This document shows, one piece after another, positions 27,231 to 50,707 of a stretch of DNA of 64,000 nt (the stretch's first letter is position 1; each line of letters starts with the position of its first letter). Source of the stretch: an uncultured Opitutales bacterium (GTDB taxonomy: Bacteria; Verrucomicrobiota; Verrucomicrobiia; Opitutales; Seribacteraceae). A model generated the notes under the pieces. The model ran no database searches. It saw only the letters and a program-made list of their open reading frames with translations, and was not told the origin of the DNA. The translations under genes and the position numbers were made by a program. The stretch covers positions 62,001 through 126,000 of the forward strand of contig CALSTX010000010.1 of NCBI GenBank assembly GCA_943789375.1, in the 5' to 3' direction.

Positions 27231-27234
27231 TTGT

Positions 27235-30046: not shown

Positions 30047-30057
30047 GATGCAGAAAT

Positions 30058-33048: not shown

Positions 33049-33077
33049 AAAAAATACACCCTGCAGTTCAGGGTGTA
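33049..33077 (-). terminator. Rho-independent terminator closing the 33-49 kb operon
   Basis: A perfect 9-base inverted repeat, TACACCCTG (33055-33063) and CAGGGTGTA (33069-33077), with a 5-base loop is followed on the minus strand by TTTTTTATA (33054 downward). It lies 18 bases past the stop of the thioesterase gene and is the best intrinsic terminator seen in the window. Confidence 0.85.
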
Positions 33078-33094
33078 GCAAAGCTTTTCTAAAG

Positions 33095-33520
33095 CTATAT
33101 GGCTAGCTTGGAGGTCACCACTTCGGGGATCATGATTGGGGACATAGTTTCTTTGACCGGGTCAAAACGAACACAGGCCGCAACAACTTCGCCCACTGCT
33201 GCTTTAACTCGCTCACCATCCTCTTCCTTCCAGAACTGAAATGCATAAGTGATCGAGCGATCCCGGATTTCAGTGATGATCAACTTCACTTCCACTTCCT
33301 CTTCAAAACGCAATGGTCGTTTAAATCGGCAGGATGTTTTGACCCTCGGCCATCCAAAGCGGCCATTCTCATCTTCCATATCCACGGACAGGCCCAGGCT
33401 GCGAAGGAATTCATGTTCGCAGATTTCCATCCAGCGATAAAAGTTGGTAAAGTGCATAATGCCGGCTAGGTCAGTCTCGCTAAATTCAACGCGTCGTGTA
33501 ATCGAAAATTCAGTAGTCAT
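33095..33520 (-). CDS. YbgC/4HBT-type hotdog thioesterase
   Basis: This 141-residue protein is of the 4-hydroxybenzoyl-CoA thioesterase/YbgC hotdog family, which hydrolyses acyl-CoA or acyl-carrier thioesters. The active-site segment is VEFSETDLAGIMHFTNFYRWME, in two parts: residues about 11-19 with the catalytic Asp (ETDLAG) and the following helix with Glu32. A SCRFKRPLRFEEEVEV strand pair follows, as in YbgC. It is the last gene of the long operon, 16 bases after the GT4 gene, with the terminator right behind it. It may release the product acid from a thioester made by the operon's ligase-like enzyme; that link is inference. Confidence 0.85.
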   Translation of the reverse strand: MTTEFSITRRVEFSETDLAGIMHFTNFYRWMEICEHEFLRSLGLSVDMEDENGRFGWPRVKTSCRFKRPLRFEEEVEVKLIITEIRDRSITYAFQFWKEEDGERVKAAVGEVVAACVRFDPVKETMSPIMIPEVVTSKLAI

Positions 33521-33536
33521 AATAAGATAAAAAAGG

Positions 33537-34844
33537 TTAAGTTTTTAAAGCACGGATGCTGGTAAAGGGCGTCAGTATATTTTCAACAAGGGATTGAGCC
33601 AGTACCTCATTGGCATATTTTTGAGTGACCAAGCAATGAGCATGAGTCCCAATTTTATGGGCTTCGGCTCGATCACTGAGCAACTCATCCAGGGTATCGG
33701 TAAACGCACCTAATTGTCCAGCATCATAAAGCCTACCACCCTGGGTGGTATTTATAATTTCAGGAAAAGCACCTGCGTCTGGCAAGACCACAGGTACGCC
33801 GGCTGCCATCGCTTCAATCACATAAAGGCCAAAAGCTTCAGGGTAACGAACAGGGACGGACAATACGGTCAATCTTTTGAGGAAATCAAGTTTTTGAGCA
33901 CGGGTAAGGTTGGGGCGAATAGAGAAACAATTCTCAAATCCAGCTTGGACAAGTTTTCTTTCTTGCTCCTCCACATAGGGCTCATCATCTGCGGTCATGC
34001 CTCCAGCGACCTCCAGTCGAAGATTGGAAAACTTATCCAACTCTTTTAATTCGATAAAAGAATCAACAAGCAAATCCAGACCTTTTAGCGGGCACAGCCT
34101 AGCCAAATACCCTACTGTCGGAACAGAAGTGGGTTTGCCGGGAGGTTCAAAGCCTTCAAGGGTTATTCCATTGGGGTGGTGCAAGACATCGCGCACATGA
34201 ATATTTAAACGATCGGCCATCAAGTTTCCAAAATATGTACTGGGTGCAATACATCCATCCAACTGCTTGGCATCGGCGGAGAGTAACCGCCACGCTTCTA
34301 AACGGTACTGAGGGAGAAGAGAATCGAGAAAGGAATCTTCTCCCTGTAAAAAACCCAGCACAGGAACTTTAAGCTCCCGCTTCAGCACTTTGCCAATACC
34401 AGCGAGCATAATTGTGGAAAGCAAAATAATATCAGGCACACCATGGGTCTTAAACCATTGCACGACTTTTTTTACTTCTTTGGCAAGCGGGCCATTTTCT
34501 CCGCGGAAGGTGGAAATGGTAATTTCTCCCAAGTCTTTGCTTGATGTCATCCCACTGCGTGCTGCAGCTTTTCGGAGGAGCCATTTATTGTCTAATGCTT
34601 TATCCACCCAGCTTGGAGTTTTTCGAAATATGGAAAACTTGTGCTGGAGGTATACATTGATACCACCAAAGAATATAGGTTCATCTCCAGTGGCGGCTTC
34701 CTCATCCAAAAAGTGGGGTAGATAAGTAGGCAACATGGTAACCTCATGGCCTTGAACGATCAACTGCTTTGCGAGAGAATTATCCCGCATGCACACCCCG
34801 CAATAATAATTGCCGGTGCCAGGTGTTAAAAAAGCAAGCTTCAC
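33537..34844 (-). CDS. GT4-family glycosyltransferase
   Basis: This 435-residue enzyme has the GT-B layout. The N-terminal half starts MKLAFLTPGTGNYYCGVCMRDN with a glycine-rich loop, and the C-terminal half contains VGYLARLCPLKGLDLLVDS and the donor-binding E-x7-E motif in EAFGLYVIEAMAAGVPVV. Such retaining glycosyltransferases move a sugar from a nucleotide donor to a lipid, polysaccharide or small-molecule acceptor. The GNYYCGxCMRDN opening is typical of a subgroup found in Planctomycetes and Verrucomicrobiota. Its start overlaps the stop of the FAD oxidoreductase by 4 bases. The acceptor could be the aromatic or acyl product of the operon; this is not established. Confidence 0.88.
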   Translation of the reverse strand: MKLAFLTPGTGNYYCGVCMRDNSLAKQLIVQGHEVTMLPTYLPHFLDEEAATGDEPIFFGGINVYLQHKFSIFRKTPSWVDKALDNKWLLRKAAARSGMTSSKDLGEITISTFRGENGPLAKEVKKVVQWFKTHGVPDIILLSTIMLAGIGKVLKRELKVPVLGFLQGEDSFLDSLLPQYRLEAWRLLSADAKQLDGCIAPSTYFGNLMADRLNIHVRDVLHHPNGITLEGFEPPGKPTSVPTVGYLARLCPLKGLDLLVDSFIELKELDKFSNLRLEVAGGMTADDEPYVEEQERKLVQAGFENCFSIRPNLTRAQKLDFLKRLTVLSVPVRYPEAFGLYVIEAMAAGVPVVLPDAGAFPEIINTTQGGRLYDAGQLGAFTDTLDELLSDRAEAHKIGTHAHCLVTQKYANEVLAQSLVENILTPFTSIRALKT

Positions 34845-36112
34845 GGAGAAGCCTGAGCCAAACCATGTTCCACAGGCTCTGGTAATTTTGCCAAGACGGA
34901 CATGGAATCAAATAATTCCTGGAAATCCTGATCGTCGACATTACCAATCAAGCAATCAGTCAAAGCGGACCGGAGATGATCCCCCCGTTTTACCAAGTCG
35001 CCGAAGCTGAATTCGGGATCATAGAATGCATAGACAATTTTACGCATAGTCTCGATGGAGGATTGCATACGCTTTCCATAATTTTCAAAATTTTTAGATG
35101 TAACCGGTTGGCCAGATTTCAAGGCTTGATCAATTTCATCGGCAAGCATCACACCACTCTTCAACGCCAGAAACACACCGGATGAAAAAACCGGATCTAA
35201 AAAACCGAGAGCGTCGCCAGCGAGAACGAGACCATCCGAGGAGCAGTAGCGATTACGGTAAGAATATTCCCCAGTAGTACGGTATTCACCAGTTTGTTCC
35301 CCTTCAGCCAGGTGTTCTTTTATCCATTCATTTTTTTGCACTTCGCGCTGGAAAATTTCGGCATGGTCCTTGGTGGAACCGTTAAACAAATAATCCCGTT
35401 CCGCGACAATGCCCACACTTACCATATCTCCACGAAGGGGGATGTACCAAAACCATCCTTTATCGGGAAGGTAGGCAACCGTTGTTGCACCCTCATCTAG
35501 ACCAGGGTCTCTTTTGGCCTTTTTATAATAAGTCCACAATGCTACCTTTTTTAACTCCGGGTCCCGCACCATCCAATTTTCCTTGTGAGCGGCAAAACAA
35601 TCTCGCCCTGAGGCGTCTACAACAATGGGGGCCCGTAATTCAAGTTCTCCCAAATCTTTGGATAAAACTTTCACTCCTTTTACTTTTCCATCCGAGGACT
35701 TGATCAAGTTTTTAGCTTTGGTTTCTTCCATCACTGAGGCTCCATGCTCCCGGGCTTTGTCCATGATCATCTGGTCAAATTCAGAACGCCAGACTTGCCA
35801 TGTCGTGGATGATGGGTGGTCAAAGTGTTGGAAAAAATAAAAAGGCTGGGAAAGGAAACCATCTTCCCTAACGAACTGAACGCAGTATTTTCGGGGATTA
35901 CCTGATTCCATTAGCGTGTCAACGAGCCCAAGTCGTTCCAAGGGAAAGTAACAAAAAGGCATCAAAGACTCCCCAACATGATAGCGGGGAAATTTTTCTT
36001 TTTCGACAATAAGTACATCGTGTCCTTTCTCGGCAAGCAGAGCAGCGGTTGTGGAACCAGCCGGGCCTCCACCGACGACGATGGCATCATAGTTGGATTT
36101 TGGGGATATCAT
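34841..36112 (-). CDS. Flavin-dependent halogenase-like oxidoreductase
   Basis: This 423-residue FAD enzyme has the dinucleotide motif GGGPAGS (14-20) and the FPRYHVGESLMP motif (41-52) shared by flavin-dependent halogenases and geranylgeranyl reductases. It also carries W-F-W-Y-I-P at 220-225, matching the halogenase motif WxWxIP, and a Lys at 75 (PRKYC) close to the catalytic Lys79 position of tryptophan halogenases. GDALGFLDPVFSSG follows near 300. These features favour a halogenase-type enzyme (chlorination or bromination of a phenolic or pyrrolic substrate), though family members with other oxidative roles exist. It follows the UbiC-like gene by 42 bases and overlaps the GT4 gene by 4. 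Confidence 0.8.
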   Translation of the reverse strand: MISPKSNYDAIVVGGGPAGSTTAALLAEKGHDVLIVEKEKFPRYHVGESLMPFCYFPLERLGLVDTLMESGNPRKYCVQFVREDGFLSQPFYFFQHFDHPSSTTWQVWRSEFDQMIMDKAREHGASVMEETKAKNLIKSSDGKVKGVKVLSKDLGELELRAPIVVDASGRDCFAAHKENWMVRDPELKKVALWTYYKKAKRDPGLDEGATTVAYLPDKGWFWYIPLRGDMVSVGIVAERDYLFNGSTKDHAEIFQREVQKNEWIKEHLAEGEQTGEYRTTGEYSYRNRYCSSDGLVLAGDALGFLDPVFSSGVFLALKSGVMLADEIDQALKSGQPVTSKNFENYGKRMQSSIETMRKIVYAFYDPEFSFGDLVKRGDHLRSALTDCLIGNVDDQDFQELFDSMSVLAKLPEPVEHGLAQASP

Positions 36113-36154
36113 ACCTGTTTATACATTCAATGTTCGATCGGCTGGTTCACAAGC

Positions 36155-36703
36155 TTAATTCAATACAAGAGTGGGTAAAATTTCCACGATTCTGGCAATA
36201 ATGTCTCCATTAAAACCAGTGATTTGATTACTACGGCCATACAATTCGTCAGATTCTACCGAGCCAAAAGCTTCAACAATGGGACCATCAGGAATAATTT
36301 TCAAAAAAGCACGAGGTGAACTGGAGTAAGGTATACGGTATTGATTTAAAAGACCACCCAAGGGTTGTTTTGCCTCAATTACAAGAGGGCGCACTTCTTC
36401 GGGTAAATGCTTCAAGGTAATCTCAATCGCACCATACTCTACAGGTTGATCATTTTCCGTTGTGGTCAACAACACTTCACGGAAATAAGACTTCCCATCA
36501 TTGGAGGATCGAAGAGGACTGACACTCAAGGCTGACTCATGGTATGCTTCGAGTCGGGATGTCATATCACCATCATGGACAAGCAGAGAGGCGTAAGGCT
36601 CTGGTATTTGACTGGCGTCCAGTTCACTAAAATTTAACTTTGGCAATTTGCGAGTCATTCGCATAAAGCTCAGGGGATACAAAAGGTCTGGGAAGGTCGG
36701 CAT
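36155..36703 (-). CDS. UbiC-like (chorismate lyase fold) protein
   Basis: The frame is open from 36781, but the ATG at 36703 lies 5 bases after the stop of the radical SAM gene and gives 182 residues, so I take it. Aligned by eye to E. coli UbiC: DGDMTSRLE for EDSMTKRFE, YFREVLL for YWLREILL (Arg75 here for Arg76 of UbiC), PLGGLL for PLGRYL, and YGRSNQITGFNGD...VEILP for WGRRSRLRLSGKP...TELFLP (Glu174 for Glu155). The third active-site residue, Arg91 of UbiC (AGRTVVP), is Ala92 here (YGAIEIT). It may therefore be a lyase with altered substrate, a relative such as a chorismatase, or a non-catalytic ligand binder. Context with a halogenase-like enzyme is notable. Confidence 0.6.
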   Translation of the reverse strand: MPTFPDLLYPLSFMRMTRKLPKLNFSELDASQIPEPYASLLVHDGDMTSRLEAYHESALSVSPLRSSNDGKSYFREVLLTTTENDQPVEYGAIEITLKHLPEEVRPLVIEAKQPLGGLLNQYRIPYSSSPRAFLKIIPDGPIVEAFGSVESDELYGRSNQITGFNGDIIARIVEILPTLVLN

Positions 36704-36707
36704 AAGT

Positions 36708-38045
36708 CTAAACGTAACGAGAGTCTTGGTGCTGAGGAAGGAAGAGGTCGTGCAGCATAGAGTCAACCCGGAGAAGTGCATCCCTGGAAAGCATTAATTC
36801 ATCTCCATTTTCTACCAAATCACCTGCTTTCTTCCACCTCTTAAAGAGCTTATCATAACGCTCTGATACATTGATCTTAAACTTTTTATCAAAATAACTA
36901 CGGCTTACTTTTCCTATCTTCCATTGCAGAATGAATTCCCGAATAAATCGCTCTTCTTCCGTGGTCATCAGAGCTCGTCGAATTATAGGACTATCGGACT
37001 CCATGGCTTCACAGTATTGATCAAAATGGGTGAGGTTTTGATAATGAATTCCTCCCAGGTGGCCAAAAGAGGCAACTCCGAGAGCAATCATATCTGCACC
37101 TGCCCAGAGGCGGTCACGATAAATAAATTTGGTGGTGGCAGGGTTTTTTACCGCCGTGCAGGTACTGGTAATCGTATACCCTGCCTCCTCCAAACGAGCG
37201 AAGGCCTCTGAAACCCATTGCCTTTTTTTAGGCCACTCCGCAACGGGCGCAGAAAGCTTACCCTCTTGCTTCATATTTTTATAAATCGTGGTGTTAAAGG
37301 GAACTTCCATCTGGTAAATGGTCACGCAATCAGGCTCAAGTTCGAGGGTGCGATCAATGCATGCCGACCAGTTCTCATCCGTTTCCTCAAGCATGCCGGC
37401 AATCAAATCAATATTTATATTTTCAAAGCCAAGTTTGCGGGCAAATTCATAGGCCTTAAAAACTTCTCCTGATCGATGAGCCCGACCGTTTATATCTAGT
37501 ATATGATCATCAAAGTTTTCTACTCCCAGACTCAAACGGGTAACTCCAAAATTTTTGATCGCTTCCAGCTTTTTTTCAGTAAGGGTGCCGGGCTCGCATT
37601 CAAAGGTTACCTCTTCAGCTTCATCCCAAGGGATGATAGATTTCATCTGATCAGTTAAATCAGTAAGTTGTTGAGCGGATAAGTAGGAGGGAGTACCTCC
37701 ACCAAAATAGACAAATTTTGGCTTACGGCCCTGCAGATAAGAAGCGTCCGCATAATTTTTGAGTTCCTTCATGGTCGCGGATAAATACCTGCGAACATCG
37801 TTGGAGTTTTTATCGGTGTAGACACGGAAATAACAGAAATGGCAGCGCTTCCGGCAAAAGGGCACATGGTAATAAATCCCCAAGGGCTCAGTTCCCGGAC
37901 TTGGGCTATTGAGCATACTATCAACACAGGGTATATCGGACTCATTCCAAAAAGAAAACGGAGGATAATTAGAAACAAAATAATTCCCCACTTTTGTTTT
38001 TTCTTTGGTTTCTCGGTCTGGTTTAATTTCTTTGGTTTCTGTCAT
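36708..38045 (-). CDS. HemW/HemN-like radical SAM protein
   Basis: This 445-residue radical SAM enzyme carries the cluster-binding C-x3-C-x2-C at Cys64, Cys68 and Cys71 (PFCRKRCHFCYF), followed by KFVYFGGGTPS and a typical ECEPGTL stretch. The fourth Cys found in HemN oxidases (CxxxCxxCxC) is Phe here, as in HemW, so it is probably not a coproporphyrinogen oxidase. The C-terminal half includes the HemN_C-like REFILQWKIGKVSRSYFDKKF. HemW-like proteins bind heme or act as methyltransferases or chaperones. The start overlaps the PQQ-propeller stop by 4 bases, placing it firmly in the operon. The specific reaction is unknown. Confidence 0.82.
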   Translation of the reverse strand: MTETKEIKPDRETKEKTKVGNYFVSNYPPFSFWNESDIPCVDSMLNSPSPGTEPLGIYYHVPFCRKRCHFCYFRVYTDKNSNDVRRYLSATMKELKNYADASYLQGRKPKFVYFGGGTPSYLSAQQLTDLTDQMKSIIPWDEAEEVTFECEPGTLTEKKLEAIKNFGVTRLSLGVENFDDHILDINGRAHRSGEVFKAYEFARKLGFENINIDLIAGMLEETDENWSACIDRTLELEPDCVTIYQMEVPFNTTIYKNMKQEGKLSAPVAEWPKKRQWVSEAFARLEEAGYTITSTCTAVKNPATTKFIYRDRLWAGADMIALGVASFGHLGGIHYQNLTHFDQYCEAMESDSPIIRRALMTTEEERFIREFILQWKIGKVSRSYFDKKFKINVSERYDKLFKRWKKAGDLVENGDELMLSRDALLRVDSMLHDLFLPQHQDSRYV

Positions 38046-39193
38046 TCTTTGCTTTCGGTTCGAAAGGCATAAACTTTTCCATCTTCACACCCAACGATAA
38101 TTTTACCGTTAAGCACTGCAGGCGTGGAGGATATAGACTCCCCAATCTCATAAGATGTTATCTCTTTTCCGGTAGCGGCGGACAACAAATAAAGTTTACC
38201 GTCCATCGAGCCAAAGACCACCAATTCCTCGGTGATCACTGGGGAGCTATCAATTCTACCCCGGGATGAAAATCTCCATTTTTGCTTACCAGAAAGCCTG
38301 TCAATTGCATGGAGACCTTTATCACGGCCACCAATAAAAACGGTATCCTGACTCACAGCTGGTGAAGAGAAATAAGGAAAGCTTTTTGGTTGATAGCTCC
38401 AGACTTTTTTTCCTGACAACAGATTAAATGCCATCACTGCCCGATCCATATTCCCCACATACCCCACCCCATCAGACACTGCAACAGAAGCAGCAATCGG
38501 GGCCTCCACTTCCACGGCGGACACTTCCTCTCCGTCTTCTAAATTAATCACATAAAGCATAGAGTCACAGCCACCGAAGACCACATATTGTTGATCAAAA
38601 ATGGTGGGCACGCCATTAACATAATTCTGGGTTTCAAACTTCCACAGGTTCTTACCAGTTTTTGCATCCAGGCAATGGACAAAATTATCATAACTCCCTA
38701 CCACAATTACGGAGTCTTTGGATTCCGGCCGAATCGCTTGGTTGGCCGCTCCCATAATCTCTCCTTCGGTTTCATATTTCCAGAGTAATTTACCTGACCG
38801 AGAGTCGAGTGCATAAAGATAACTATCTGTCGACCCGGCATATAAAATACCATTATGCAGCAAGGGGGGTGCTTCAATGGCCATTTCAGCCTTAAACCTC
38901 CACTGTTCTTTCCCATCTTTTAACTTTATCGCATGAAGCACGCCACGGTCTGAACCGATGTATGCATGAGTGATGGATGTAACCACCGAGGATTTCAGGA
39001 AGTCACCGGTATCAAATACCCAATCCAGGGTAAGCTTAGTACCAAGGGTAGCAGTAGATTTTCCCTGCAAGGCGGCATCGCCTCTGTGCCGATGCCAGCC
39101 ACTGCTTTCCACAGAGTTTGCCGGATTTACAATTAAGCAAAGTGCCATTGTACCAAGCAGGTAGAAAGAACCGGGTGAAATGAAGCGGGACAT
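38042..39193 (-). CDS. PQQ-type beta-propeller protein (BamB-like)
   Basis: The start is ATG 39193 (MSRFISPGSFYLLG), 5 bases after the alcohol dehydrogenase stop; a TTG at 39202 is less likely. The 383-residue protein has a signal peptide and seven or eight propeller blades, each with a motif of the type DGKEQWRF, SGKLLWKYE, TGKNLWKFE, SGKKVWSY, SGKQKWRF. This is the PQQ-repeat/BamB propeller. Real PQQ dehydrogenases need further active-site residues that are not evident, so a structural or PQQ-less role is more likely. It lies between the iron alcohol dehydrogenase and the radical SAM genes. Three further propeller genes lie at 45021, 46557 and 49400. Confidence 0.85.
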   Translation of the reverse strand: MSRFISPGSFYLLGTMALCLIVNPANSVESSGWHRHRGDAALQGKSTATLGTKLTLDWVFDTGDFLKSSVVTSITHAYIGSDRGVLHAIKLKDGKEQWRFKAEMAIEAPPLLHNGILYAGSTDSYLYALDSRSGKLLWKYETEGEIMGAANQAIRPESKDSVIVVGSYDNFVHCLDAKTGKNLWKFETQNYVNGVPTIFDQQYVVFGGCDSMLYVINLEDGEEVSAVEVEAPIAASVAVSDGVGYVGNMDRAVMAFNLLSGKKVWSYQPKSFPYFSSPAVSQDTVFIGGRDKGLHAIDRLSGKQKWRFSSRGRIDSSPVITEELVVFGSMDGKLYLLSAATGKEITSYEIGESISSTPAVLNGKIIVGCEDGKVYAFRTESKE

Positions 39194-39198
39194 ATAAA

Positions 39199-40440
39199 TC
39201 AATCCCTTACCTTTCCCTCGAGTGAAGAGAAATCGTAACCAATCCCAGCTAAAAGTTGAGAATAAAGGTTTTCAAAATCAGAAGTGGTGACAGACCTGGG
39301 ATTAAAATTTGCCGTCCATTGCTCAGCGGCATCACGAGCAAGGGTTGGAACATCGCTGGAGGAAAACCCAAGTTCCACCAAAGATTTTGGAAGCCCTGCC
39401 AAATCAAGAAGTTTATGGACTCTTCGGATTAAAGCATGAGCCGCCTTGTCCTCAGAATCATCCGTTGTGGCAAGATTGGCCAAGCATGCGAGGTGAGCAT
39501 AAATCGAGCATACTTCTTCATCCTCAGCATTGTATGCCATCACCCCAGGAAGAGAAATCCCCACGGCAACTCCATGAACGATCCCTTTCTGAGCAGTCAG
39601 AGGATTCGCCATGGAATGAGCGGCACCCAACATACTTCTTTCAATCGCAGCACCGGCGTGGGAAGCACCCACCAAAACCTGCCCGCGGGCATCAAGGTCA
39701 TGAGGAAAGGATAATACTTGGGGGAGATTTTTTTCAAGGAGTTGAAAGGCTATTCTTGCATGCCTGAATGAGGCACTATTTCTCTTTGAGCTTACGGCGG
39801 ACTCTAGGGCATGAGCCAAGGCATCCACCCCAGTACAGGCGGTTACCCGATGGGGTTGGGAAACTGTAAGCTCCGGGTCTAAGACTGTTAAAGATGGTAG
39901 TGCCTTGGAGTCGCCACAGGCCATCTTCTGGTGGGTGAGATCATCGGATATAAGGGCGAAGGATTGGCATTCACTCCCTGTGCCAGCGGTTGTGGGAATA
40001 GCCACAAAAGGAAGCATAGCTTTAGATGCTTTGTCCACTCCCCAGTAATCAGCCATCTTTCCACCATTGGTAAGAAGAAAATTACAACCTTTGGCCGTAT
40101 CCATCGAGCTCCCGCCCCCAAGTCCAATAATAAGATCGACTTCCAATGGGCGGGCAAATTGTACGCATGCTTGGACGCTTGAATCCGTTGGGTTTTCTAT
40201 GGATTGGTCGTAGGTAAAAACTTCTATCCCATGAAGAGCCAGGCTTTCTCGGATAGGATCTACATGGCCGGCTTGTGTAAGGCCGTCATCGGTAACAAGT
40301 AAGGCCCGATTCCCAAACCCTTTTATTTTTTCACCAACATGAGAACTTGAACCAATACCAAAAATTACTTCTTGGTGCGATGGATCACCTTCCGCAAAAA
40401 AAGGAAACGGTGATTCTTGGCCCGAAGTTGCAAGTTGCAT
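39199..40440 (-). CDS. Iron-containing alcohol dehydrogenase
   Basis: This 413-residue enzyme is of the group III (iron-dependent) alcohol dehydrogenase family, which interconverts alcohols and aldehydes with NAD(P)H. Motifs: GGGSSMDTAKG near 109, IPTTAGTGSEC near 147, and the metal-binding residues in CTGVDALAHALE (Asp and His) and the two downstream His in GAAHSMANP and GIVHGVAVG. It starts 23 bases after the aldehyde dehydrogenase-fold gene and precedes the PQQ propeller. With the acyl-activating enzyme and the reductase before it, it forms a plausible acid to aldehyde to alcohol series. The direction and substrate are inferred. Confidence 0.9.
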   Translation of the reverse strand: MQLATSGQESPFPFFAEGDPSHQEVIFGIGSSSHVGEKIKGFGNRALLVTDDGLTQAGHVDPIRESLALHGIEVFTYDQSIENPTDSSVQACVQFARPLEVDLIIGLGGGSSMDTAKGCNFLLTNGGKMADYWGVDKASKAMLPFVAIPTTAGTGSECQSFALISDDLTHQKMACGDSKALPSLTVLDPELTVSQPHRVTACTGVDALAHALESAVSSKRNSASFRHARIAFQLLEKNLPQVLSFPHDLDARGQVLVGASHAGAAIERSMLGAAHSMANPLTAQKGIVHGVAVGISLPGVMAYNAEDEEVCSIYAHLACLANLATTDDSEDKAAHALIRRVHKLLDLAGLPKSLVELGFSSSDVPTLARDAAEQWTANFNPRSVTTSDFENLYSQLLAGIGYDFSSLEGKVRD

Positions 40441-40463
40441 TTGTGAGAGAAGAAAAGTAAACC

Positions 40464-41897: not shown

Positions 41898-41899
41898 CT

Positions 41900-42976
41900 T
41901 TAATAAACTCCTTCTACAATATTTTTTTCCATAGCACCAAATGGTCGAACTTCCGCAACTCCATCCCAAGGTGCTTCAGTCCATGGTCTACGGCGCCTCG
42001 CCTCGTCCCGCTCAAGAAAGCGGGGCATAAAAAATTCTTTGGTCAGGGTGGAAAGCTCTACCCTGCCCCAAGTATCATAGGCCACAGGTTGATTATTTTC
42101 TGTGTTAATGACACGAAGGACAGCTCTTGGCTGGGGCGCATAATAGGCAATTGAGTAATCGTTTTCCCGACTTATTGGGTGATGCCTCGCAAGCCCCATC
42201 AAGGTATTTCCATAAGTTGGAACGAAACCAATTTTACCACCCTCGCAAACCTCTTCCACAAGAAACCGGGCATATTGCTTATCCATGGTTGTGCCACCAC
42301 AAAATACTCCCTTGATTCCAGCCCGTACTAAATCTTTTCTCTCGGCTAAAGCCTCCAATAATTTTGGTGTTGTAAATAAGGCACTAACTTCACGGTTTTT
42401 CAGGATGGTTAAAGCTTGGTCTACGACATGGTCCATGTAGGCACGAGCTTGGTCAAACTGCTTGTTGGCAATCAGCCGCTTCACCCAACGGGGATCGAGG
42501 TCTACAAAATAACAGGAACACCCCCGCTCGTTTGCCAAATGTTCAATGGCTAAGCGTAAACGCCTTGGCCCGGTTGGTCCCACCATCATCCAATAGTGAT
42601 TTCTTGGGAAATGCTCATCGGAAAGAGTTTCAGAAAAGGCAGTGTAATCAATCCTGAAATCCTCCCATCCAATTCGCTGTTTTGGCATTCCCGTCGTGCC
42701 ACCGGTTTCAAATATGTTAAAGGGACGATCTTTGTAAGCTTTGGGTACCCATACTTTATTTGGTAGATCACGAAGCCATTCATCCTGAAAATTGGGAAAT
42801 TTATTACATAGATCCTCAAAAGTTTTGACTTCCTCAAGCGGATCCCATGATTGATCCCTAGCCCAGTCTAGCCAGAAAGGTGAACCGGTTTCATCTGAAA
42901 AATGCCACTTAATGATCTCAGCAACATGGGTGTCTAAGTCTGCTGCTGCTTGTTGGGTCTGGTTTTCAATTGCCAT
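41900..42976 (-). CDS. LuxE/PaaK-like acyl-activating enzyme
   Basis: This 358-residue protein belongs to the PaaK/LuxE branch of adenylate-forming enzymes. The AMP-binding loop reads FETGGTTGMPKQR at about 89-101, with MMVGPTGPRRL near 125-135 and VPTYGNTLMGLARHHP near 240-255 in the place of the A5 motif. It lacks the long C-terminal domain of full PaaK ligases, being closer to LuxE acyl-protein synthetase in size, though no acyl-Cys site can be assigned with certainty. Its gene stops 2 bases before the reductase start. The pairing is reminiscent of LuxE-LuxC fatty-acid reductases. The acid substrate is unknown; an aromatic acid is plausible given the neighbouring UbiC-like gene. Confidence 0.8.
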   Translation of the reverse strand: MAIENQTQQAAADLDTHVAEIIKWHFSDETGSPFWLDWARDQSWDPLEEVKTFEDLCNKFPNFQDEWLRDLPNKVWVPKAYKDRPFNIFETGGTTGMPKQRIGWEDFRIDYTAFSETLSDEHFPRNHYWMMVGPTGPRRLRLAIEHLANERGCSCYFVDLDPRWVKRLIANKQFDQARAYMDHVVDQALTILKNREVSALFTTPKLLEALAERKDLVRAGIKGVFCGGTTMDKQYARFLVEEVCEGGKIGFVPTYGNTLMGLARHHPISRENDYSIAYYAPQPRAVLRVINTENNQPVAYDTWGRVELSTLTKEFFMPRFLERDEARRRRPWTEAPWDGVAEVRPFGAMEKNIVEGVY

Positions 42977-43045
42977 ATAAAAAGTTGTTTAAAAAGGTTG
43001 AATGAGATAATGGTATAACGAAACTCTCGAAGAAAAAGTTCAGCT

Positions 43046-44752
43046 TTAAGAATTATTTTCTGGAAAGAATCTAGCCACTGTTTGAGGGGGGGGAGGATTC
43101 GTTGCCAGAGAAACAACAACCATGGCAACTGAAGCGGCCACAAAGCATATAGCTGCAGGCACAATACCCGGTCCAACCAGATATTCCCCACCATACCCTG
43201 AAAGGTGGAAAAAATAGAGCCAACTCAAAACGGCAGCCACAATACTTGCGATGGCACCATACTTGGTGGCTCGCTTCCAATAAAGAGCGGAAAATACTAA
43301 AGGGAAAAGAGCGGAAAATCCACTGAAGCACCAAATTGCCAAATCAAAAACATTGGCGTCTTTTGCAAGCATAGCCAGAAAATAGGTTAGAGATACAATA
43401 CAAATAATAAAAATACGGGCTATGGAAATAATTTGTTTATCTGTAAATCTTTTCTTTCCCGCACGATGTACAACAATATCATTTGTAAAAATTGTGCCAA
43501 GACAGAGAAATTGAGAATCAAGAGAAGACATAATAGCAGCCAATATCCCAGCGGTTAACAGGCCAATCAAGATGGGATCTCCAACCAAAAGGTTTAGCAT
43601 TGCAGACAATACCGCTGGTGGTGGAATTCCTGGTTGTAAGACTCCGCTGGCCCACGCACCCACTAATACGCAAGGTACCCATACAATCATGATACACAGG
43701 GGATGAGCAATGACGGTGAGCCGGAAAGACTTCGCACTTTTCGCGGTCAGCCAATGTTGAAATAAATGAGGAAACATTCCAACACTCAAAGGAATAAATA
43801 AATAAGTAACAAAAGTTATGAAAGAGAATCCGAGTTCTCTCTCAAAAAAAGAAACCTCTCCTGATTTCAGGTTCTTTTTTTTGAATTCAACCCGGGTAGC
43901 TTCTCTCCAAAGATGAGGTTGCTTATTTACAATATCGTCGCTCTCTGATGAGAGTACTTTACCGATTACTCTAGGTGGTTCATTGGCCACAATTGTAGCC
44001 TGTTTTTTATCAAAACGATAGTCTTGTACAATGATAGACTGTTCCGTGATACGAGCAGGGATTTTGCCTGCATTCTCAATCCCGCCCAAAGCCTTTATTA
44101 TAAAGACAAAAGCGACCAATCCCATAAACATAAAAACAATGGTTTGGAAAGTGTTGGCAAAAGCCGCACCGCGAGAGCCTCCCATGAACACATAACTTAG
44201 CACAACCAGGCATACCACAAGCCCTGTCAACCAAGGTGGAATTCCCCCAAGCCATGGAGGTGCACTTGGGTTCGTAAAAAAAGTTGGAAAAGCTCCTGCC
44301 GTTACCGGTTCTATTGTCTTACCTGCACCAATGATACCAATGAGTAAATAAGGAACGACCAGCAATACCAGGATCGGAAAAAGTAAGTACCCCAACTTAT
44401 CTGAATCAAAGCGGTCACGAAAAAACTGAATCTGCGTGATATAGCCATACTTTTTACCAAAAGCCCACAACCTTATCCCAATAAGGAAAAAAATGCCCGC
44501 ATGTACCAGGCCACTAATCGATGCCATCAACCCGTAGGTTCCGATACCACGCTCAAAAGATTTTCCAGTCGAACCGACTAAGGCAAATGCAGTCATGGTG
44601 GTGCCGAAGACACTCATGAGTAAAAGAAAGGGGCCTATGCTATGACTGGCCACGAAATAATCCTTACTGGTGCCACGAAATAACCGATTACTAAAAAAAC
44701 CAAGGGTTAACAGCAGGCAAAGATAACAGGCAATTACAATGAGTGTCGTCAT
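43046..44752 (-). CDS. Sodium:solute symporter (SSS/SLC5 family)
   Basis: This 568-residue transporter has about 13 membrane segments and the SSS-type motifs RGTSKDYFVASHSIGP near 29-44, STGKSFERGIGTYG near 62-75, and an opening tract matching solute:sodium symporters. A cytoplasmic or periplasmic insert of about 80 residues, highly charged (near 232-308, DYRFDKKQAT to FKKKNLKSGEV), interrupts the core and is longer than usual. It is preceded by a small membrane protein (26 bases upstream), a pairing known for several SSS transporters. It likely imports an organic acid or related compound by sodium coupling; the substrate could be that used by the acyl-activating enzyme downstream. Confidence 0.88.
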   Translation of the reverse strand: MTTLIVIACYLCLLLTLGFFSNRLFRGTSKDYFVASHSIGPFLLLMSVFGTTMTAFALVGSTGKSFERGIGTYGLMASISGLVHAGIFFLIGIRLWAFGKKYGYITQIQFFRDRFDSDKLGYLLFPILVLLVVPYLLIGIIGAGKTIEPVTAGAFPTFFTNPSAPPWLGGIPPWLTGLVVCLVVLSYVFMGGSRGAAFANTFQTIVFMFMGLVAFVFIIKALGGIENAGKIPARITEQSIIVQDYRFDKKQATIVANEPPRVIGKVLSSESDDIVNKQPHLWREATRVEFKKKNLKSGEVSFFERELGFSFITFVTYLFIPLSVGMFPHLFQHWLTAKSAKSFRLTVIAHPLCIMIVWVPCVLVGAWASGVLQPGIPPPAVLSAMLNLLVGDPILIGLLTAGILAAIMSSLDSQFLCLGTIFTNDIVVHRAGKKRFTDKQIISIARIFIICIVSLTYFLAMLAKDANVFDLAIWCFSGFSALFPLVFSALYWKRATKYGAIASIVAAVLSWLYFFHLSGYGGEYLVGPGIVPAAICFVAASVAMVVVSLATNPPPPQTVARFFPENNS

Positions 44753-44778
44753 ATAAATCCGAATTTAAAAGATGGTAT

Positions 44779-45003
44779 TTATTTGGATTGATCAGGTGAG
44801 TCTGCAAATTTTTCTAATTCGGCTGGCCAAGCAAACCTTATGGCAAGCCAGCCAAGGATAGCACAGGCGATAGAAAATGTGGCATGGTAGGCCAACCCGA
44901 TTGGCAAGAATCCCAATACAAGAAAAGATTGATCCCACCACCAAAAGTCCTGGTGTAGAAAAAACATCAGAACAAATAAAAACCAAACCATTCGCTTTCC
45001 CAT
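44779..45003 (-). CDS. Small SSS-associated membrane protein
   Basis: This 74-residue protein has two membrane segments (about 7-15 joined with 25-40, and 42-58) and the sequence DFWWWD and FLPIGLAYHATFS typical of the short DUF3311/YhdT-like proteins encoded just ahead of sodium:solute symporters. Such partners are thought to support the symporter as a small subunit. It lies 17 bases after the PQQ-propeller stop and 26 bases before the symporter. The family assignment is from memory of the pattern; the subunit role is inferred. Confidence 0.7.
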   Translation of the reverse strand: MGKRMVWFLFVLMFFLHQDFWWWDQSFLVLGFLPIGLAYHATFSIACAILGWLAIRFAWPAELEKFADSPDQSK

Positions 45004-45020
45004 AATTTTCTGGTTCAGGG

Positions 45021-46538
45021 TTATTGGCCGATCGCGTATAAATGGGTTTGAGTAGCCACATATAGAGTACCATTTGCCACAACGGGGGAACTGTAAACAG
45101 GAGCACCCATATTGACTGTTTTTACTTCTGGTTCTTTTTTCCCATGATCCAAAATGAGCAGGTCTCCGTCTTCATTGCCTAGAAGAACCTTACCTGCAAC
45201 CACAAGAGTTGATCCCCATATTCTACTAAAGGAGTCATAAGACCAATAAAGTTTTCCAGAATTTGCGTCGAGGCAATGAATAATGCCGGCGTATTCTGCA
45301 ACATAGACCAGATCATCCAATACCGAAACCGTAGATATCGTTCTTCCGACATCGGTGTATTTCCAGAGAACTTCACCACTTTTGGCATCAATACAAGAAA
45401 GCCTTCCTACCCCATCGCCATGCTCTGGATCCTGCCCGATCGCGCAATACACTTTCCCTTTGTACAAAACAGGTGTCCCAATCAATTCACTGGCCCCTGG
45501 TGGGGTAGCATACGGTACTTTCTTACCGTTTTTATCAATTCTGTAATGGGGCTCATTACAATCAACCTTCCATCTTGGATTGAAAAGATCATATCCATCC
45601 TCATCTTTGTTTGTTTGGGTAGAGTAACCATAGCAGAACCCATCGGTCCCACCCCAAATTAAAGTTTCCTCCCCTCCTACAACCCCATAAGTTAATGATG
45701 ACCATGCTGCATGAAGAGCATGAGCACTGGCATCTGAACCATCCTCGCCAATCAGTTCTCCAGTATTTTTGTCGAGTGCAACCCAGCTTGGAGAAAGAGG
45801 ACTTGGAATATTTGTATGAGACCAATCCACGCCGTTCGAGGTGGCCACATAAACCCGATCCCCCACGATCAATGCCGATGAGCTTGTGACATTATGGGGG
45901 AATACGCCAAGTTCATCCCTCATATCGTACATCCAAAGAATATCAGCATCCATTTTGGGATTGAGTGGGTCGTCCATACCTTTTGGCTTTATGTACTCAG
46001 CCTCATTCTTGAAGGGTCCATTATTTCCATCTGCCAAGCCATGAATGTCTAAGCAGACGACCTCACAGCGGTTGGTCACAACATATACCTTATCGCCATC
46101 AATGGCAGGGGATGAGCAAACTCCGATATATTCCCAATCACTTACTTTTCCGGCACCAAGTTTAGGAATTACCAGTTGCCACTTCAATTCCCCCGTTTTT
46201 TCATCTAGGCATAAGACAACCCCTCGATCCCCCTTTTTTTGAGAATCTCGGGGGGATTCATTATTTGTTCCTACAAAAACACATCCGTTGGCAATGGTGA
46301 CATTCCCGTATGCCTGAGAGCCTAACTTGGCAACCCACTTTACGTTTTTAGTAGTTTTCAGGTCTACTTTTTCATCCTCACCCATCTCACCGGGCATAAA
46401 ATCAAATGTAACTTTCTTTTCAAAAGAGACCATATTGCGGGATCCATTGCCACCCCAAACCGGCCAGTCACTGGCCTGTGAAAAAGAAAAGGATGCAATG
46501 CATACCAGGTAAGGAACTAAAAGCTTTATTATATTCAT
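45021..46538 (-). CDS. PQQ-type beta-propeller protein
   Basis: This 505-residue secreted protein has a signal peptide (MNIIKLLVPYLVCIASFSFSQA) and a WPVWGGNGSRN opening typical of outer-membrane or periplasmic PQQ-repeat proteins of this phylum. Blades show TGELKWQL, GKVYCAIG, SGEVLWKY, SGKLYWSYD. A long variable loop (IHGLADGNNGPF to MDADILWMYD) interrupts the middle. The first part of each blade resembles quinoprotein alcohol dehydrogenases, but the Ca-binding and catalytic Asp are not recognisable by eye. It is the second gene of the large operon, 18 bases after the 769-residue propeller gene and 17 before the small membrane protein. Confidence 0.85.
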   Translation of the reverse strand: MNIIKLLVPYLVCIASFSFSQASDWPVWGGNGSRNMVSFEKKVTFDFMPGEMGEDEKVDLKTTKNVKWVAKLGSQAYGNVTIANGCVFVGTNNESPRDSQKKGDRGVVLCLDEKTGELKWQLVIPKLGAGKVSDWEYIGVCSSPAIDGDKVYVVTNRCEVVCLDIHGLADGNNGPFKNEAEYIKPKGMDDPLNPKMDADILWMYDMRDELGVFPHNVTSSSALIVGDRVYVATSNGVDWSHTNIPSPLSPSWVALDKNTGELIGEDGSDASAHALHAAWSSLTYGVVGGEETLIWGGTDGFCYGYSTQTNKDEDGYDLFNPRWKVDCNEPHYRIDKNGKKVPYATPPGASELIGTPVLYKGKVYCAIGQDPEHGDGVGRLSCIDAKSGEVLWKYTDVGRTISTVSVLDDLVYVAEYAGIIHCLDANSGKLYWSYDSFSRIWGSTLVVAGKVLLGNEDGDLLILDHGKKEPEVKTVNMGAPVYSSPVVANGTLYVATQTHLYAIGQ

Positions 46539-46556
46539 ATAAATAGTTTTTATAAA

Positions 46557-48866
46557 TTAGCGGTTTTGAAAAATTTTAATATTATCTATGTATACCTTTT
46601 TTTTACTCTGAGGGGACATAGCGTAGAGACCTGGCGCACCCTGCACATGAGGAATCTTGTGAGGTATTTCTAATGTCCATGCTTCTGGTTCATCCTGGTC
46701 TTTGGGCCATGCCTTAGCCTGAATTAGACCGGTTCCATCCTCCAGTATATCAATTTTAGTTTTTAGGCGGTACCAACTCTTCGTTTCAATAGTAAAAGGA
46801 ACTGAGTGCCTAAACCGGTCATAGTTTGAAACGACCTCTAATATTTGACTATTGCCAACAAGTACAAAAATATACCGTTGGTTTATCAACCCAATATTTG
46901 ATTTGGTTCTTCTGTCACCATCAGTCATGACATCAGCCTCCATGGTGTAATTGGTCATATTTTTGTGGCCAATAAAATTAATCGCTCTCTGGAAAAGCAC
47001 GCGGTCTAAAGTATTTCCTGCCACATGGTTTTCTCCGGCAAGCTGTACCTGCCATCTCATTCGAGCTCCAAGCCATGGTAGAGGCGGGTAGGAAAATGAT
47101 ATATCGCCCGTTCCTGTATTTGTTAAATCAAAATTTGTCTCAAAATCCTCCGTGTAGGGGAGTTCCTGCAATATACGCCCTCGAGTAAACCCAAAAAAAT
47201 CACGATACTTTACTCGCAAAGCACCGGCTGAAAGTTGTGCTTTCTTTTCCGCTGTAAGAACCCCATTATCACTAATATAAGCATCGACTTTTGATTTTAC
47301 TTTGGCGACAGGGGGAATCCATTTTTCCCAGGTCATTCCTTCCTTAATTTGGGCAATACGATTTCCCTTACTGTCCAATGTAAATACAGAGAAAATCTGG
47401 CTTTGCCCTGATCGCAATGTAAATTCTGCGGGAATAACTTGTAAAGATTTTGCAGCCCCCTTTCCTGCTTCTACTTGAGAGGGTTGAGCAACAAATGCCG
47501 GAGCAGGTGCTGCTGATCCAAAACAAAAGAGTTTGCGTTTTGTTTGTACAAATACACGCCCATGAGCAACCGAAGGAGCGGCAAGGCAAGCAGAACCCAA
47601 GTCCAATTCGCTTATAATTTTTCCCTCACCTCCTCGATCGGCTACCACAAAAAGTTTTCCGTTAAACATGGGCACATATAGTTTTCCATCCGCCCAAGTA
47701 GGTGAAGCATGCACTTGGTCGGGAGCTAATTTAAGCACCCAATGTTCTTCTCCGGATTCAGCATCCAGGCAAACAAGTTCACCACGCTTGATGGTTGCAT
47801 ACAATTTACCATCCTTATAAACAGGTGTGCTTGTAAATGCCTCCATAGCCGAATTTCTCCACGCCTCATGCTCTTTTCCAAGAATGAGGGTATCTTCTCC
47901 GTAAACAGGCAGGTTAGCAGGTTTCTTGATTGCGACCATTCTTCCAATCACAGAACTGTCTAGATTTTCTTTACCATGAATCGCAATGACTTTGTTACCG
48001 TGCAAGACGACCCCTGAATTTACACCACCATGTGACATTTGAAAACGCCATAAAGGTTGCCCAGTCCGGGCATCTATACACACAACATTCCCACAACCTG
48101 TACCACTGTAAAATACCCGTCTTCCATCAGCTAGGTCTTCAAAAATGAGTGGAGAAAAGGAACTATCTTTTGGGGTAATTCCTGGTGTTGAAGACCAAAC
48201 AAGTTCACCGGAAGATTTGTCAAAAGCATAAAAACGGTCACGGGCAGGACCATGCTTTCCCCAGCTTGCCGTAATCGCATGAATAATCACTAGGTTCTCA
48301 TCGATACAAGGCCCTCCAGTTCGACCATTGGGAAAGGTTAAACGGGCATACTCTTCCATGAGGGACCTTTCCCAAAGCTTCTCCCCATTTGGGTCGTAGC
48401 CGATGAGTAAACCAGGACTTGTCTGGAAATACACATTTCCAGTTGTTGGGTCAACGCAGGGTGCACCCACGCCATAGCGGTTATATACAATATCGCTTAC
48501 AAAATCGCTATGCCTGCGGTCCCATAAAACCTTCCCATTGCGGGCGTCAAAACAAACCAAAGCTTCCTGGAGATCATCCCCTACCCCATAGTAACCAAAT
48601 TGATAGACACGACCACCTGCTATCACTGGTACCCCTCCTCCTTGAATTTCATGAGTCCAAAGAAGACTGTTACCTAAATCACTAGGCAAATGGGTTTGGG
48701 TCGATACACCCGAGCCATCCTTACCTCGCCAATACAACCAATCCGAATGTAAAGGAAGACTGGGTTTGATTTCATTCGAACCAATATTAGTAGTAACCGT
48801 TTTAGATGAGAGGAGAAAAACGCCAGCTAAAAAATAAGGCAGAAAAAAGAAATATTTTGGGATCAT
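46557..48866 (-). CDS. PQQ-type propeller fused to a LamG-like domain
   Basis: This 769-residue protein starts with a signal peptide (MIPKYFFFLPYFLAGVFLLS) and carries propeller blades with NGKVLWDR, TGQPLWRFQ, SGELVWSS and SGEEHWVL in residues about 45-445. A short Pro/Ala-rich linker and an Ig-like stretch (about 475-560) are followed by a C-terminal beta-sandwich (about 575-769) with NYTMEADVMTDGD and ending VYIDNIKIFQNR, resembling LamG/DUF1080-type domains. It is the first gene of the large operon, starting at 48866 opposite the divergent MarR gene 96 bases away. The fusion of a propeller with a sugar-binding-like domain suggests a cell-surface role. Confidence 0.82.
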   Translation of the reverse strand: MIPKYFFFLPYFLAGVFLLSSKTVTTNIGSNEIKPSLPLHSDWLYWRGKDGSGVSTQTHLPSDLGNSLLWTHEIQGGGVPVIAGGRVYQFGYYGVGDDLQEALVCFDARNGKVLWDRRHSDFVSDIVYNRYGVGAPCVDPTTGNVYFQTSPGLLIGYDPNGEKLWERSLMEEYARLTFPNGRTGGPCIDENLVIIHAITASWGKHGPARDRFYAFDKSSGELVWSSTPGITPKDSSFSPLIFEDLADGRRVFYSGTGCGNVVCIDARTGQPLWRFQMSHGGVNSGVVLHGNKVIAIHGKENLDSSVIGRMVAIKKPANLPVYGEDTLILGKEHEAWRNSAMEAFTSTPVYKDGKLYATIKRGELVCLDAESGEEHWVLKLAPDQVHASPTWADGKLYVPMFNGKLFVVADRGGEGKIISELDLGSACLAAPSVAHGRVFVQTKRKLFCFGSAAPAPAFVAQPSQVEAGKGAAKSLQVIPAEFTLRSGQSQIFSVFTLDSKGNRIAQIKEGMTWEKWIPPVAKVKSKVDAYISDNGVLTAEKKAQLSAGALRVKYRDFFGFTRGRILQELPYTEDFETNFDLTNTGTGDISFSYPPLPWLGARMRWQVQLAGENHVAGNTLDRVLFQRAINFIGHKNMTNYTMEADVMTDGDRRTKSNIGLINQRYIFVLVGNSQILEVVSNYDRFRHSVPFTIETKSWYRLKTKIDILEDGTGLIQAKAWPKDQDEPEAWTLEIPHKIPHVQGAPGLYAMSPQSKKKVYIDNIKIFQNR

Positions 48867-48962
48867 TTTTTTAACGGAGTGTGTATTTTCATTGCAATAA
48901 AAATTAGTACTTGTACGTAGTATTTTGTCAATCTTTCAACTTTCTTTTGAATTAACAATTTT
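48867..48962. promoter_or_regulatory. Divergent promoter region between MarR and the long operon
   Basis: These 96 bases hold the promoters of the MarR gene (plus) and of the thirteen-gene minus operon. The region is AT-rich. The sequence GTACTTGTAC at 48907-48916 is a symmetric half-site pair with a 2-base spacer, followed by GTAGTA, and could be a MarR binding site, since MarR proteins commonly bind short inverted repeats in their own divergent promoter. The promoter hexamers were not assigned with confidence. Confidence 0.45.
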
Positions 48963-49403
48963 ATGCAAAGAGTAAAAACCCGCAGGCTTCCTCCGCTTCT
49001 CAGATCGTGCTGGATTACATTAAATGCAACCTTCCAAAAGCGTTTGCTACCCTTCGAAATTACACCAGATCAATACATCGTCTTACGCTGGCTTTACGAG
49101 CGTGGGGATATGGAAACCAACCAGGTTACACTTGCCACTTTAATGTTTACCGATGCAAATAATATATCGAGCTTAATTGACCGAATGATGAAATCTGGCC
49201 TCCTCCACAGAAAAGCCTCGAGCAAGGACAGCAGAATGAAATGCTTAAGTCTTACTGAAACCGGTAGAGAAAAGTTTAAAAAAACAAGCCCTATTGCCCG
49301 ATCTTTGGAAAAAGAAGTTCTTAAAGATCTAAAGGTGGAAGAAAAAGAAATCTTTCTCCAATTACTGAGTCGACTAAGCTCTTTCCTTAATCAATCAGCT
49401 TAA
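48963..49403 (+). CDS. MarR-family transcriptional regulator
   Basis: This 146-residue protein has the MarR winged-helix fold: an N-terminal helix LRSCWITLNATFQKRLLPFEIT, the recognition region TLATLMFTDANNISSLIDRMMKSGLL, and the wing RKASSKDSRMKCLSLTETGREKF, with the conserved D-x-R and TxxG residues. MarR regulators usually repress a divergent or adjacent gene set and release DNA on binding a phenolic or other small ligand. Divergence from the thirteen-gene operon makes that operon the prime candidate target, and the ligand may be an intermediate of its pathway. Its stop overlaps tail-to-tail with the PQQ-propeller gene at 49400. Confidence 0.9.
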   Translation: MQRVKTRRLPPLLRSCWITLNATFQKRLLPFEITPDQYIVLRWLYERGDMETNQVTLATLMFTDANNISSLIDRMMKSGLLHRKASSKDSRMKCLSLTETGREKFKKTSPIARSLEKEVLKDLKVEEKEIFLQLLSRLSSFLNQSA

Positions 49404-50626: not shown

Positions 50627-50666
50627 GGGGTCACGCTTTCAATTCAGAAAAAAAAGTCAATCCAAA

Positions 50667-50703: not shown

Positions 50704-50707
50704 CCGG

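Follow-up and report, generated by a model that had tools for sequence, protein, structure and literature searches.

We have analysed a stretch of 64,000 nucleotides from an uncultured Opitutales bacterium (assembly GCA_943789375.1, contig CALSTX010000010.1, positions 62,001 to 126,000 of the forward strand; the window hereafter), in which thirteen consecutive open reading frames, none with an internal stop, occupy the minus strand between 48866 and 33095. This predicted operon begins with two genes for secreted beta-propellers, a DUF3311-like gene and a sodium:solute symporter gene. An adenylating enzyme, an aldehyde dehydrogenase (ALDH)-fold protein, an iron alcohol dehydrogenase and a third propeller come next, and a HemN-like radical S-adenosylmethionine (SAM) protein, a UbiC-like protein, a halogenase-like flavoenzyme, a glycosyltransferase of family 4 (GT4) and a hotdog thioesterase complete the set (Table 1). 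We propose, at a probability of roughly 0.55, that the operon encodes most of a conserved pathway that would run from chorismate to 4-hydroxybenzoate and, after tailoring, to an aldehyde and then an alcohol, together with the import of an aromatic acid.

Five enzymes from different families, namely the adenylating enzyme (EhpF-like, as shown below), its ALDH partner, the radical SAM protein, the flavoenzyme and the UbiC-like protein, co-occur in two phyla and are often unlinked, and this predicts that they serve a shared product. Judged by their sequences, the enzymes are of known types, and for their combination and distribution we have found no match; no report of such a gene combination was found in the open-licence literature, where such an absence is weak evidence. 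If the proposal is right, the pathway would supply a carrier-free biocatalyst for aryl aldehydes, would assign a function to a UbiC-like family missed by Pfam models, and could possibly identify the genes that make hydroxybenzoate-type metabolites in Planctomycetota. Searches based on ketosynthases, carrier proteins or linkage would overlook a pathway of this kind.

Co-inheritance and gene order in two phyla

We have searched 240 genomes of Verrucomicrobiota (completeness filter 90%, the window's genome included) and 292 of Planctomycetota (filter 85%). In each genome only a limited set of candidates was scored, so some matches may have been missed. Among the Verrucomicrobiota, EhpF is found at E ≤ 1e-20 in 12 genomes, in ten of them at E < 1e-140, and UbiC is found in 10 genomes, which are exactly the ten with strong EhpF. 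The two genes lie on different contigs in six of these ten and ~30 kb apart in one. ALDH is present in all of 16 chosen genomes, and the flavoenzyme in 9/9 further strong-EhpF genomes and in none of 20 EhpF-less controls. We have also chosen 33 genomes from the EhpF loci described below. UbiC occurs in 31 of them, two of which had it beside EhpF already. That is, where the EhpF locus has no UbiC, the gene is found elsewhere in 29 of 31 genomes (one titled Planctomycetaceae), and the flavoenzyme is found in 27 of the 31.

In Planctomycetota, EhpF (E ≤ 1e-15) is found in 105 genomes, with 74 strong matches (E < 1e-90) and 31 weak ones (E > 1e-50). The radical SAM protein (E ≤ 1e-80; 75 genomes) and the flavoenzyme (E ≤ 1e-60; 76 genomes) are both present in 74/74 genomes with strong EhpF, and in only 1 and 2, respectively, of the 218 others. 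ALDH (E ≤ 1e-60) likewise accompanies strong EhpF in 74/74, with 0/6 among controls, and all 58 genomes with UbiC (E ≤ 1e-5) belong to the 74, none to the 218. In three single-contig genomes the genes are sometimes megabases apart. The P values of these co-occurrences (7e-18, 7e-47, 2e-69 and 9e-68) treat genomes as independent and are descriptive only.

The weaker EhpF-like group, of 31–36% identity, makes up 31/292 Planctomycetota, none of which has a UbiC match; it may represent another, independent role of enzymes related to EhpF.

Gene order was compared in 80 loci (L051–L130, from which the gene-order counts come; L031–L050 overlap these in content). Out of 509 relatives found for the EhpF-like protein, the best ones gave these loci, many of which are interrupted by contig ends. 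Twelve genes were scored per locus, the small symporter partner being left out. All 12 are present in 17 loci, two of them titled Planctomycetota. The earlier note on this DNA had named in advance, as what would refute its operon, a lack of joint conservation in related genomes; the genes are conserved jointly, and we have found the window's order in 17/17 of the full loci. We reject chance neighbourhood on the strength of this shared order together with the co-occurrence of unlinked genes.

Actually, the gene set is composed of two modules, and many relatives have them apart. Module A holds a MarR regulator, two propellers, the symporter, EhpF, ALDH and the iron dehydrogenase, and module B holds the third propeller, radical SAM protein, UbiC, flavoenzyme, GT4 and thioesterase, to which a membrane protein (EamA-like) and a ligase (PaaK-like) are added. 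Both modules stand together in the window's family, as they do in further genomes of Opitutales type and in eight stretches from Planctomycetota, the stretches fetched being selections from longer match lists. Stretches fetched around UbiC, from genomes with a UbiC-less EhpF locus (L194–L212), contain pieces of module B but lack EhpF. EhpF is solitary in three genomes that belong to one class, and in that class radical SAM protein and UbiC form a separate pair; the third propeller accompanies radical SAM protein and UbiC where module B stands separate. One genome of the phylum has an EamA-like gene between ALDH and EhpF (L164:7400-10600), linking the membrane protein of module B to module A.

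A putative aryl-acid reductase with an uptake system

The alignment of the adenylating enzyme with EhpF reaches the last residue of the EhpF chains (366 and 369 aa), and the second-best PDB match has an E-value of only 0.24. No AMP-binding C-terminal domain is matched by Pfam in its 358 residues; EhpF itself is not known to have the C-terminal domain of ANL enzymes. We have considered LuxE acyl-protein synthetase, which carries a C-terminal acyl-accepting Cys, and rejected it: neither Pfam nor NCBIfam gives a LuxE family match, EhpF is matched instead, and the last 100 residues of the translation contain no Cys. Thus, of the "LuxE/PaaK type" activation and reduction in the earlier note, acid activation and reduction stand, and LuxE gives way to an EhpF/GriC-type enzyme with an EhpG/GriD-type ALDH.

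The ALDH gene follows after 2 bp in the window and lies within 400 bp after EhpF in 65/80 loci; against this, the two are unlinked in some genomes. We have aligned eight ALDHs, among them those encoded beside EhpF on a plasmid of E. coli and in a phenazine cluster of Burkholderia. The Cys (C291, alignment A2) is invariant in 8/8, and the general-base column, located by alignment to KauB, has Glu in 0/8, being occupied by His, Gln, Arg, Tyr or Leu. This agrees with the earlier observation of an ALDH fold without the general-base motif.

EhpF-ALDH pairs also occur in phenazine clusters of E. coli and Burkholderia, and Streptomyces goshikiensis has one close to pabB. The copy on the E. coli plasmid (NZ_CP076707.1), which shares 34% identity with the window's EhpF-like protein, belongs to an annotated phenazine-type cluster near a gene named clbA. 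On a plasmid of Halalkalicoccus jeotgali (NC_014299.1) symporter, EhpF-like and ALDH genes are consecutive, and this uptake-reduction trio thus exists outside Bacteria as well. The acid handled by EhpF/EhpG in the biosynthesis of D-alanylgriseoluteic acid in Pantoea is phenazine-1,6-dicarboxylate. The window has the same pairing, an adenylating enzyme adjoining an ALDH-fold protein. Phenazine genes, on the other hand, surround the pair in the E. coli and Burkholderia records examined and are absent from the operon; no phz-type families were found among the window proteins scanned with Pfam.

A second precedent comes from grixazone in Streptomyces, where GriC forms an acyl-AMP from aminohydroxybenzoate and its partner GriD carries out the reduction to the aldehyde (PMC10179220). 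The likeness is one of described function; the acid of the grixazone route derives from aspartate semialdehyde plus dihydroxyacetone phosphate instead of coming from a chorismate lyase. Because of the EhpF match, the ALDH Cys without Glu, the pairs elsewhere and the GriC/GriD precedent, we read the two proteins as a putative two-protein, carrier-free aryl-acid reductase. EhpF would adenylate the aryl acid, and the ALDH, by the mechanism of its family, would take the acyl group onto its Cys and form the aldehyde by reduction with NAD(P)H, no carrier protein being needed; deacylation should not occur, since the general base is gone. The iron dehydrogenase would then convert the aldehyde to the benzylic alcohol. 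Its D206, H275 and H289, which with H210 we take to be the metal-site columns, are kept in 33/33 sequences, and H210 in 32/33, the remaining one being unread.

Such a reductase would explain why a carrier protein gene is missing. As the earlier note had remarked, neither ketosynthase nor carrier protein genes are present, as judged by Pfam on 29 distinct window translations (~13.2–53.7 kb), and on this ground we have rejected an aryl polyene or flexirubin cluster. The PaaK-like ligase scores 125 bits against FlxY, for which the cut-off is 520.

As to the substrate, the transporters offer a hint. A major facilitator superfamily (MFS) protein is found in 15 loci, in 14 of them immediately upstream of EhpF in the absence of a symporter match, and 11 of these 14 have a propeller gene on the other side of it. 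For the two MFS proteins scanned, the best NCBIfam model is aromatic acid/H+ symport (68 and 75 bits, cut-off 419), PcaK and MhpT being also listed. Since the protein in the symporter slot resembles this family, albeit under the cut-off, the cargo is indicated to be an aromatic acid, which the symporter may carry in, or back in. The regulator, divergent from the same genes in many relatives, has BilQ, Saro_0803 and HpaR as nearest NCBIfam models, all below cut-off, and probably senses an aromatic acid.

Uptake and reduction could alternatively form a detoxification or salvage system, in which an environmental aromatic acid is taken up by the symporter and turned by EhpF, ALDH and the iron dehydrogenase into a less harmful alcohol, the rest being neighbours. 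The separation of the two modules in many relatives, the haloarchaeal trio, and the resemblance of MarR and MFS to aromatic-acid systems (below cut-offs) agree with this. However, a chorismate lyase would be superfluous to a pure uptake pathway, the same genomes mostly have UbiC (29/31) and the flavoenzyme (27/31) elsewhere, and the full accompaniment of strong EhpF by radical SAM protein, flavoenzyme and ALDH in 74/74 Planctomycetota would be left aside. Overall, we regard detoxification as quite unlikely.

A proposed route from chorismate to a tailored alcohol

In the pathway from chorismate, the first step would belong to the UbiC-like protein, whose fold and residues suggest that it forms 4-hydroxybenzoate. 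Its start is probably at 36703, rather than 36781, and its structure prediction was built with 14 sequences. With this model Foldseek ranks the DUF98 protein AF1396 first (2nwi, E = 1.1e-8) and also matches product-bound E. coli chorismate lyase (1fw9; E = 2.5e-5, 18% identity). The fold, a conserved Arg, and MT and PLG motifs are shared with UbiC and DUF98 proteins; the absence of a Pfam match and of any ubiquinone genes seen adjoining sets the protein apart from them. Arg101 is kept in 39/39 sequences and aligns with the E. coli Arg, the catalytic residues of chorismate lyase being presumably R76 and E155.

The HemN-like radical SAM protein and the flavoenzyme are predicted to alter the aromatic ring itself or one of its derivatives. 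In the former, a possible HemN-type class C radical SAM methyltransferase, the CxxxCxxC cysteines (C64, C68 and C71) are kept at no less than 97% in 40 sequences; the methyltransferase NocN (E = 1.3e-26) is more distant than HemN, and no NCBIfam cut-off is reached. For these ring steps, C-methylation, and halogenation or hydroxylation, would be the obvious reactions. The PaaK-like ligase, the thioesterase and GT4 may attach or take off CoA or a sugar, and a glycosylated, possibly halogenated aromatic alcohol or aldehyde is a fair guess for the product. Similar logic is known from the gastrodin-type route, which leads from 4-hydroxybenzoate to a 4-hydroxybenzyl alcohol glucoside: chorismate lyase, acid reduction, alcohol dehydrogenase and glycosyltransferase would be common to both, whereas the window has a predicted two-protein instead of a carrier-dependent reductase, GT4 instead of GT1, and added ring-modifying enzymes.

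If the flavoenzyme halogenates 4-hydroxybenzoate and the rest of the set decorates it, the product could instead be a defensive halogenated phenolic of the bmp bromophenol or dibromo-p-anisic acid type. Both of these pathways combine a 4-hydroxybenzoate-type phenolic with a flavin halogenase; the window would share this, its radical SAM protein, putative aryl-acid reductase, symporter and propellers being extra. GxGxxG, WxWxIP and a catalytic Lys are motifs of flavin-dependent halogenases. The nearest solved relatives are indeed halogenases (8zop, 3e1t and others), Pfam Trp_halogenase matches above its cut-off, W-x-W-x-I-P is retained in 32/32 sequences, and Lys75, which aligns to the Lys of solved halogenases, is retained in 31/32, as is each Gly of GxGxxG. 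However, the NCBIfam score for CmlS is 198 bits, far below the cut-off of 900, and the QhpG and LodB models, whose namesakes are not known to halogenate, match too. In our judgement, chromosome-wide scatter combined with strict co-inheritance would also be unusual for a defence metabolite, and we consider this product rather unlikely.

Several observations weigh against the pathway that we propose. The UbiC-like protein belongs to no Pfam or NCBIfam family (0 at E ≤ 0.001), and phmmer against the PDB gives it a chance match only (E = 1). In the fold search several GntR/HutC-type regulator effector domains outrank E. coli chorismate lyase, and as these have the same fold, the fold does not prove a chorismate lyase. 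Glu200, kept in 37/39, falls one column off the E. coli Glu in the MAFFT alignment, and the profile alignment with E. coli UbiC ended before this Glu. UbiC is undetected in 16/74 Planctomycetota having the other four genes, so that another acid source may exist; in some of these (G473 and G511) the radical SAM gene directly adjoins that of the flavoenzyme, which leaves UbiC no space between the two. The trait is also patchy: of 57 relatives 35 have an EhpF match, these being 33/37 in the window's family (the four negative genomes are 57–69% complete) and only 2/20 in other families of the order. In addition, related species are not independent, and our counts were made without a species tree. 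Finally, the ring-modifying reactions and the sequence in which they would follow each other are guesswork, and the proposal accounts neither for the propellers, which may be secreted partners, nor for uptake in a biosynthetic operon.

The three propellers (pqqA, pqqB and pqqC in Table 1) had been noted earlier as secreted pyrroloquinoline quinone (PQQ) proteins. They are propellers, the signal peptides of pqqA and pqqB being judged by eye, and PQQ is not supported. BamB is the nearest NCBIfam model of pqqA, below cut-off, and the nearest PDB protein of pqqB, and the dehydrogenase family PQQ_enz_alc_DH stays below cut-off for all three. PqqE is above cut-off in 0/16 genomes, with weak matches in 12/16; 14 controls also gave 0, and there is thus no positive control. 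On this basis PQQ itself appears doubtful as the propeller cofactor. The families of pqqA and pqqB are found in 62/82 and 65/82 clustered loci, respectively; these frequencies come from clustering, as direct match counts may include cross-matches between propellers.

It is conceivable that EhpF, ALDH, radical SAM protein, flavoenzyme and UbiC would make a new diffusible redox cofactor or shuttle derived from 4-hydroxybenzoate (a quinone or a benzylic alcohol), which would leave the cell, return to it as the acid and serve the co-encoded secreted propellers in place of PQQ. In both phyla the pathway genes are accompanied by propeller genes, PqqE is not seen above its cut-off, and co-inheritance without linkage resembles core metabolism. 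On the other hand, PQQ could be scavenged, the weak PqqE-like matches count against the idea, and the one propeller compared with the PDB, pqqB, is nearest to BamB, with no cofactor-binding site identified. BamB is not known to carry a cofactor. We hold the redox reading to be highly speculative; if true, it would mean a core pathway in about a quarter of the sampled Planctomycetota, patchy in Verrucomicrobiota.

Layout of the predicted operon and neighbouring genes

With start codons picked by comparison with relatives, the intergenic gaps from 5' to 3' along the set are 18, 17, 26, 69, 2, 23, -4, -4, 4, 42, -4 and 16 bp, that is, three neighbouring pairs overlap by 4 bp and no gap exceeds 69 bp. 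Tight packing on one strand with gaps up to about 70 bases had been described earlier and is borne out, as are the closing hairpin terminator and the MarR regulator, whose start is 96 bp from the operon head; the labels for uptake, GT4, hotdog thioesterase, UbiC-like and halogenase-like proteins also agree with family or fold matches. The small symporter partner is encoded by 45003-44779, not by the longer mechanically called frame. Terminator-like sites number 31 in the scan against 19.5 ± 4.4 in shuffles; the hairpin pattern by itself is thus weak evidence, though the site after the thioesterase is well placed. Sigma-70-like sites are not enriched in the scan (21 against 29.5 in shuffles).

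Table 1 Features of the operon and its surroundings in the window. pLDDT, predicted local distance difference test.
Feature	Position	Strand	Evidence or remark
MarR-family regulator, divergent	48963..49403	+	Pfam MarR E=2.8e-10
pqqA, secreted beta-propeller, 769 aa	46557..48866	-	PQQ_2 E=1e-30
pqqB, secreted beta-propeller, 505 aa	45021..46538	-	PQQ_2 E=2.7e-23; PDB nearest BamB
Small symporter partner, DUF3311-like, 74 aa	44779..45003	-	PF11755 E=1.1e-5, 25.8 bits, cut-off 30
Sodium:solute symporter	43046..44752	-	PF00474 E=4.6e-32
EhpF/GriC-type aryl-acid adenylating enzyme (predicted), 358 aa	41900..42976	-	PDB EhpF 3l2k/3hgu E=3.4e-42, residues 13-358
EhpG/GriD-type ALDH-fold reductase (predicted), 477 aa	40464..41897	-	Aldedh E=7e-10
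Iron-type alcohol dehydrogenase	39199..40440	-	PF00465 E=3.4e-48
pqqC, secreted beta-propeller, 386 aa, TTG start	38042..39202	-	PF13360 E=8e-55
HemN-like radical SAM protein	36708..38045	-	Radical_SAM E=1.8e-25; PDB HemN 1olt E=1.5e-32
UbiC-like protein, chorismate lyase fold, 182 aa	36155..36703	-	AlphaFold pLDDT 91.5; Foldseek
Flavin-dependent-halogenase-like enzyme	34841..36112	-	PF04820 E=5e-28; PDB halogenase 8zop E=5e-55
GT4-type glycosyltransferase	33537..34844	-	PF00534 E=5.6e-23
Hotdog thioesterase	33095..33520	-	PF13279 E=7.5e-12; PDB 5wh9 (named 4-hydroxybenzoyl-CoA thioesterase) E=2e-16
Terminator-like hairpin and T run	33055..33077	-	9-pair stem, then six T; 17 bp beyond last stop
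EamA-like small membrane protein, 171 aa, displaced member	23195..23710	-	Up to 93% identity to gene directly after thioesterase in relatives
PaaK-like CoA ligase, displaced member	21892..23175	-	PDB phenylacetate-CoA ligase 4r1l E=7e-42; after EamA-like gene in relatives
ABC ATPase (21189-21887) and FtsX-type permease (17815-21189)	17815..21887	-	PF00005, PF02687

The set does not close at 33095, as had been thought, since EamA-like, PaaK-like and ATP-binding cassette (ABC) transporter genes continue it on the same strand ~9 kb downstream, at 23710-17815. In relatives the thioesterase is followed by the EamA-like membrane protein and the PaaK-like ligase, in several also by the ABC ATPase and the FtsX-type permease, which possibly form an exporter. 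Relatives of the permease occur in 14 of the loci searched, several adjoining the PaaK-like gene. The EamA match is below cut-off (E = 0.015), and the predicted structure of this protein is poor (pLDDT 66, predicted template-modelling score 0.43). Between the thioesterase and these displaced genes stand three large minus-strand genes (23795-32913), one with a LamG domain, whose N-termini are signal-like as judged by eye; they look like an insertion into the cluster.

On the other side, adjoining MarR, lie minus-strand genes (49400-52357) for a fourth propeller of PQQ type, for a protein of 359 aa that matches nothing in Pfam, and for a sigma factor with regions 2 and 4. This group recurs beside MarR in relatives, and in loci titled Chthoniobacteraceae a relative of the fourth propeller comes after UbiC. 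Four metagenome-assembled genomes titled Akkermansia muciniphila (L106, L115, L123 and L130) carry loci like those of environmental Verrucomicrobiota, that of L106 being like the Chthoniobacteraceae-titled ones, and their species labels look doubtful.

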